A DNA stretch of 46,517 nucleotides from Candidatus Nanopelagicales bacterium (GTDB taxonomy: Bacteria > Actinomycetota > Actinomycetes > S36-B12), in assembly GCA_017857705.1 (NCBI GenBank), contig JAFMCP010000006.1:1-46517 (forward strand). Direction: 5' to 3'. The translations under genes and the position numbers were made by a program. The notes below the pieces were generated by a model, which was not told the origin of the DNA, ran no database searches, and worked only from the letters and a program-made list of their open reading frames with translations. Positions 14,344 through 17,310 of this stretch are shown here, piece by piece (within the stretch, counting starts at the first letter, position 1; each line of letters opens with the position of its first letter).

Positions 14344-14697
14344 TTATGAGGCGGTAGCAATTTGCATGGGGAACCCGATGGGTGCGGTGCTGATCTCACT
14401 ACCCACTGCAGTACTTGCTTTCAAGCGACCGGCATAGATTTCTTCACGTTCGTCTTCGGTGAGGCCACCCCAAACTCCGTAGGGTTCACGAACTGCGAGT
14501 GCATGTTGGGCGCACTGAACCTTGACCGGACATGCCCCACAAACGGCTTTGGCGGATTCATCCCGATTGATACGAGCGGGTCCACGTTCGCCTTCGGGGT
14601 GGAAGAACATATTGGGGTCTTCTCCACGGCAAAGGCCAAGAAGTTGCCAGTCCCAAGTGTCGGCGTTGGGGCCGGGGAGACGGGATACATCAGCCAT
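14344..14697 (-). CDS. whiD: WhiB-family Fe-S transcription factor, WhiD/WhiB3 type (start corrected to 14697 from 14751)
   Basis: MADVSRLPGPNADTWDWQLLGLCRGEDPNMFFHPEGERGPAR; four Cys (C..CxxCxxxxxC); GVWGGLTEDERE; SD AAGGAG 5 nt before ATG. Confidence 0.94.
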   Translation of the reverse strand: MADVSRLPGPNADTWDWQLLGLCRGEDPNMFFHPEGERGPARINRDESAKAVCGACPVKVQCAQHALAVREPYGVWGGLTEDEREEIYAGRLKASTAVGSEISTAPIGFPMQIATAS

Positions 14698-14732: not shown

Positions 14733-14762
14733 ATAATACAAAGCGTTTCATAGGTTGGTCAA
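14733..14762 (-). promoter_or_regulatory. whiD promoter: -35 TTGACC, 18-bp spacer, -10 TATTAT (minus strand)
   Basis: GGTCAA 14757-14762 and ATAATA 14733-14738 on plus strand. Confidence 0.65.
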
Positions 14763-14772
14763 TATTTTAATC

Positions 14773-14788
14773 TGTGAGTTGAATCACA
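14773..14788. promoter_or_regulatory. CRP/FNR-type operator, perfect consensus TGTGA-N6-TCACA
   Basis: TGTGAGTTGAATCACA between divergent whiD and merR/B12 gene. Confidence 0.75.
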
Positions 14789-14870
14789 AGATGCGAAATA
14801 TGGACTTATACCCCACACTTGGGTGGTGCCAAAGCCCGTTATTACGCAATCGCACCCGGTCGAGGGCGAA

Positions 14871-17310
<2,440 letters not shown>

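Follow-up and report, generated by a model that had tools for sequence, protein, structure and literature searches.

The intergenic region between whiD, a stress-sensor gene, and a divergently transcribed MerR-B12 regulator gene of an aquatic Candidatus Nanopelagicales bacterium carries a CRP-type palindrome, TGTGAGTTGAATCACA (14773-14788, no strand assigned), which we predict to be an operator for the organism's sole CRP protein, an orthologue of Mycobacterium tuberculosis (Mtb) Rv3676. Bound there, CRP would most likely activate whiD and could possibly act on merR-B12 as well, and it would probably not be strictly switched by cAMP; we place the probability of this combined reading at roughly 0.72. 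That the palindrome is a real and conserved CRP operator is very likely on comparative sequence grounds. The sequence was checked and is an exact TGTGA-N6-TCACA, as the initial annotation of this DNA had claimed. Within the window (the whole 46,517-nucleotide stretch analyzed), the site falls in the gene order groES-groEL, whiD (minus strand), merR-B12 (plus strand), and guaB.

The whiD gene (14344-14697, minus strand) sits between groEL and guaB and encodes a 117 aa member of the WhiB family (Pfam Whib, 2.9e-25) whose best relative of solved structure is Mtb WhiB3 (E 1.6e-35). By its domain, its closest relative, and its groEL neighbor, we assign it as a WhiB3/WhiD orthologue, which agrees with the target type named in the initial annotation. 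The presence of a whiB3/whiD-type gene beside groEL is shared with the groEL1-whiB3 pair of Mtb (PMC3430963) and with the Streptomyces whiD region, while here, in contrast to both, an apparently leaderless CarH-like gene is divergent to whiD. The start of whiD was corrected to ATG 14697 (MADVSRLPGP) from the longer open reading frame start at 14751. Its predicted promoter on the minus strand, TTGACC-N18-TATTAT, consists of a -35 element at 14757-14762, strongly conserved across the order where MerR-B12 is present and forming the first part of a longer block, TTGACCAACCTATGAAACG (14744-14762), and a -10 element at 14733-14738 assigned from sequence and conservation, with an inferred transcription start site (TSS) at ~14726.

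The divergent gene (14826-15791, plus strand) encodes a protein with Pfam MerR and B12-binding domains that matched TtCarH in a PDB search (E 7.5e-16). All four elements of the published light-response signature, GxxW, EH, GxxH, and GxxxP (PMC11796333), were found in this protein; W131, E141, H142, H177, and GxxxP are present, the residue equivalent to H177 being the lower ligand, and H132 is replaced by Glu. The NCBIfam CarH equivalog cut-off was not reached (72 bits versus 400). The protein is best classed from its sequence as CarH-like and not as a CarH equivalog, and its domains and photoreceptor signature bear out the earlier description of the gene. It shares the MerR HTH, the B12 domain, and the GxxW/EH/GxxH/GxxxP elements with the CarH/LitR proteins of T. 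thermophilus, M. xanthus, and B. megaterium but differs from these systems in the Glu at position 132 and in having whiD, rather than carotenogenesis genes, as its partner. A -10-like CACACT (14814-14819, plus strand; CATAAT or CACAAT in relatives) ends 6 nt before GTG 14826, and a hexamer of the CACAAT type is found 6-7 nt from the start codon in nearly all of ~38 loci across the order. From this spacing we infer a leaderless merR-B12 transcript, with GTG 14826 as its most likely start. The -35-like element is GATGCG (14790-14795, plus strand), and most relatives have a similar rATGCG-like word at ~17 bp before the -10.

A CRP dimer at 14773-14788 would lie upstream of both promoters, at 10 bp from the whiD -35 and 1 bp from the merR-B12 -35-like element, with its center at -54.5 and -45.5 from the respective inferred TSSs. 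The canonical class I and class II CRP positions of E. coli are -61.5 and -41.5, and both distances observed here are off these positions. Both do fall in the -60 to -40 zone from TSSs in which Mtb CRP sites cluster (PMC4117774). The promoter and the ~54 bp distance given in the initial annotation hold, and the activating position that it proposed lies in the Mtb range and off the canonical E. coli classes. The most likely mode of action would be activation of whiD through contact of CRP with RNA polymerase, and CRP may act on merR-B12 too.

Alternatively, CRP may act mainly on merR-B12, either by class II-like activation or by repression through occlusion, and affect whiD only indirectly via the CarH-like protein. 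A conserved island extends nearly unbroken from TCACA into AAGATGCG, the merR-B12 -35-like element, which the CRP footprint would cover, and the distances to both the whiD and the merR-B12 elements are invariant in the clade that carries the site. However, the center at -45.5 is 4 bp off the class II position, the spacing to the whiD -35 is just as invariant, and the -35-like element is kept in relatives that do not have the CRP site. We consider this alternative possible but on the unlikely side, and direct activation of whiD is retained as the preferred reading.

The draft genome examined comprises 2.0 Mb (2,003,769 bases) in 161 contigs and is 94% complete. A genome-wide scan recovered one perfect TGTGA-N6-TCACA, which is TGTGAGTTGAATCACA itself. 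As ~2 perfect matches per genome are expected by chance (from 4^-10), this uniqueness carries no evidential weight, and a reversed control pattern also produced one perfect match genome-wide. Allowing up to one mismatch, there was a mild excess, with 67 matches across the genome versus 43 in the control; allowing up to two mismatches within the window, there were 17 versus 25 in shuffles, making the observed matches the rarer. Enrichment of perfect sites was dropped as a line of support (one found, ~2 expected). Intergenic enrichment of near-perfect sites was also weak, with 9 of the 42 examined scored as intergenic, a rough count from a simple ORF caller that missed the whiB1 gene. The lack of genome-wide enrichment and the 9/42 intergenic fraction suggest that the CRP regulon is small or built on degenerate sites. 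The significance of TGTGAGTTGAATCACA, as judged from these sequence comparisons, comes from its location and phylogenetic conservation and not from its count.

In a genus-level comparison, the site was found at the identical location in all eight genomes of one clade, as the perfect palindrome in five and as GGTGA-N6-TCACA in three, and always at 10 bp from the whiD -35. The initial annotation had made its proposal depend on conservation in close relatives, and this clade provides it. Invariant positions among the eight genomes numbered 9 of 10 in the half-sites, as compared to 1 of 6 in the N6 and 3 of 10 in the neighboring spacer (permutation fraction 0.0014). The N6 and the flanks diverged between two subclades while the half-sites stayed. 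This pattern bears on whether the palindrome arose by chance and is simply carried along in a short intergenic region that is conserved as a whole, as the ~2 perfect matches expected per genome would allow. The retention of the half-sites amid diverged surroundings argues against this, as does the probability of ~1e-4, by our own arithmetic, for a perfect site in one given promoter region of ~110 bp, and a chance origin appears very improbable.

A single protein encoded in the genome exceeded the HTH_Crp_2 cut-off, and the CRP/FNR homologue without which the initial proposal would not stand is therefore present. This CRP (G000:C156, 227 aa) aligns over its full length with Mtb Rv3676 (E 4e-84), and its recognition helix, QLVGASRETVNKALADF (SRETVNK), is identical to that of Rv3676, R188 and E189 included. 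An Rv3676-type CRP is retained in most of the genus; crp adjoins an endonuclease III-like gene. Upstream of the whiB1 orthologue (84 aa), a homologous site is present in 12 of 12 readable genomes of the genus, as CGTGAAAGCATTCACA in nine and as variants in three, and in the window's own genome it is CGTGAAAGCATTCACA (L064:1501-1516, G000:C13). Several other families also have the whiB1 upstream site, at distances that vary, and together these occurrences suggest a TGTGA-like specificity of CRP in this lineage. As whiB1 is under CRP control in Mtb (PMC3430963), the conserved whiB1 site supports both this specificity and an old link between CRP and the WhiB family. In Mtb, CRP occupancy is higher at sites with fewer mismatches to the consensus (PMC4117774).

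CRP is not the only regulator with short palindromes of this kind, and the absence of genomic enrichment of perfect sites would also be compatible with binding by some other dimeric regulator. Given that the genome encodes an Rv3676-type CRP with an identical recognition helix, and that whiB1, which CRP is known to target in Mtb (PMC3430963), has a similar conserved motif, we regard another regulator as improbable and CRP as the predicted ligand of the palindrome. The arrangement resembles the Rv3676-whiB1 system of Mtb in its orthologous CRP, its identical recognition helix, and a TGTGA-type site that lies upstream of a WhiB-family gene, within the -60 to -40 range; it differs in that the target is of the WhiB3/WhiD type and the site is common to a divergent B12-MerR gene. 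A search of openly accessible papers returned no direct report of CRP/GlxR control of whiB3, whiD, or whcD. With this prediction, CRP control of WhiB-family genes would reach beyond Mycobacterium into the uncultured aquatic Nanopelagicales, and the CRP-WhiB link would pass from whiB1 to a whiD/whiB3-type gene.

The eight site-bearing genomes make up one side of a tree branch with a support of 100/100. The deeper-branching genomes of the genus (G008, G009, and G011) lack the site, which was not found outside the eight-genome clade among the relatives compared; G007, where the contig ends, and G002, where the gene was not found, were uninformative. This single-branch distribution fits one gain inside the genus, and from the tree the site looks like a single gain. 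The deeper branch without the site indicates that it is not essential for whiD. Among 28 genomes outside the genus, 14 have TTGTTCA/TTATTCA (up to one mismatch) upstream of the whiD -35, at a distance of exactly 17 bp (L020, L022, and L023 are examples of such whiD upstream regions), and the box occurs at any other offset in at most three. In the window's clade, part of the CRP site occupies the position of this box. The CRP site may thus have been gained once in the genus at a place where other genera have an unrelated conserved TTGTTCA box, and would offer an example of promoter rewiring within one genus.

The initial annotation had also placed an input from cAMP, the signal usually ascribed to CRP, at this locus. 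A profile search for class III adenylate cyclases (PF00211) gave no match in any of the 13 congeneric genomes and did give matches in controls and in 16 other genomes; in contrast, the class III cyclase-like proteins of Mtb number at least 16 (PMC4005916). CYTH proteins are present (open frames of 459-525 aa), and a class IV adenylate cyclase is possible among them. The Rv3676 cAMP contacts E80, R89, R130, T134, and N135 are kept in the CRP studied here, and T90 and S91 are replaced by Ala in the CRP of the window's subclade. Rv3676 binds DNA in its apo form, with a gain of only about 2-fold from cAMP (PMC4005916). Because the 13 congeneric genomes gave no class III cyclase match, two contacts are Ala, and the apo form of Rv3676 binds, we do not regard the cAMP input as demonstrated. 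CRP here is probably not a tightly cAMP-gated regulator, and its input to the whiD promoter would probably be no strict cAMP switch. The case poses the question of what signal, if any, acts on an Rv3676-type CRP in genomes where no class III adenylate cyclase can be detected.

Throughout the order, genomes with an adjacent MerR-B12 gene have a recognizable form of the block TTGACCAACCTATGAAACG over the whiD -35. One genome (G037) has whiD with no clear MerR-B12 and does not have the block, the only such motif contrast. Within the genus, the block occurs in essentially one copy per genome, at this promoter, which rules it out as a regulon-wide motif. By eye, nTGA recurs in the block with a period of 11 bp and no complete TnnACA repeat is seen, unlike the tandem 11-bp nnnnTnnACAn repeats of CarH operators. 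Its location over the -35 and spacer of a divergent promoter is a likeness to CarH/LitR systems, as CarH operators often overlap the -35 (PMC9304148). The conservation of the block beside MerR-B12 and its absence from G037 are suggestive of a candidate operator of the CarH-like protein. Across the order, whiD and the divergent MerR-B12 gene mostly occur together or are missing together, and most genomes without MerR-B12 are also without this whiD; this frequent co-occurrence and joint loss suggests a possible light/B12-redox module.

A node at the whiD/merR-B12 region with CRP, WhiD, and the CarH-like protein as its three inputs is a plausible hypothesis, with the cAMP arm weakened. A more specific form, in which a CRP that has lost its response to cAMP would be a recent recruit to a promoter otherwise under a CarH-like B12/light repressor, we consider rather unlikely. 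If true, such a node would tie together carbon/energy state, light/B12, and Fe-S/NO sensing in an aquatic actinobacterium.

Other perfect TGTGA-N6-TCACA sites in the genus are mostly within ORFs, and the only common target is near a secreted-protein gene adjacent to phoH. The secreted proteins beside the PhoH-like gene matched no Pfam family. Two genomes of the genus have CRP-like sites between the PhoH-like gene and the secreted-protein gene (L092:1501-1516 and L039:1501-1516).
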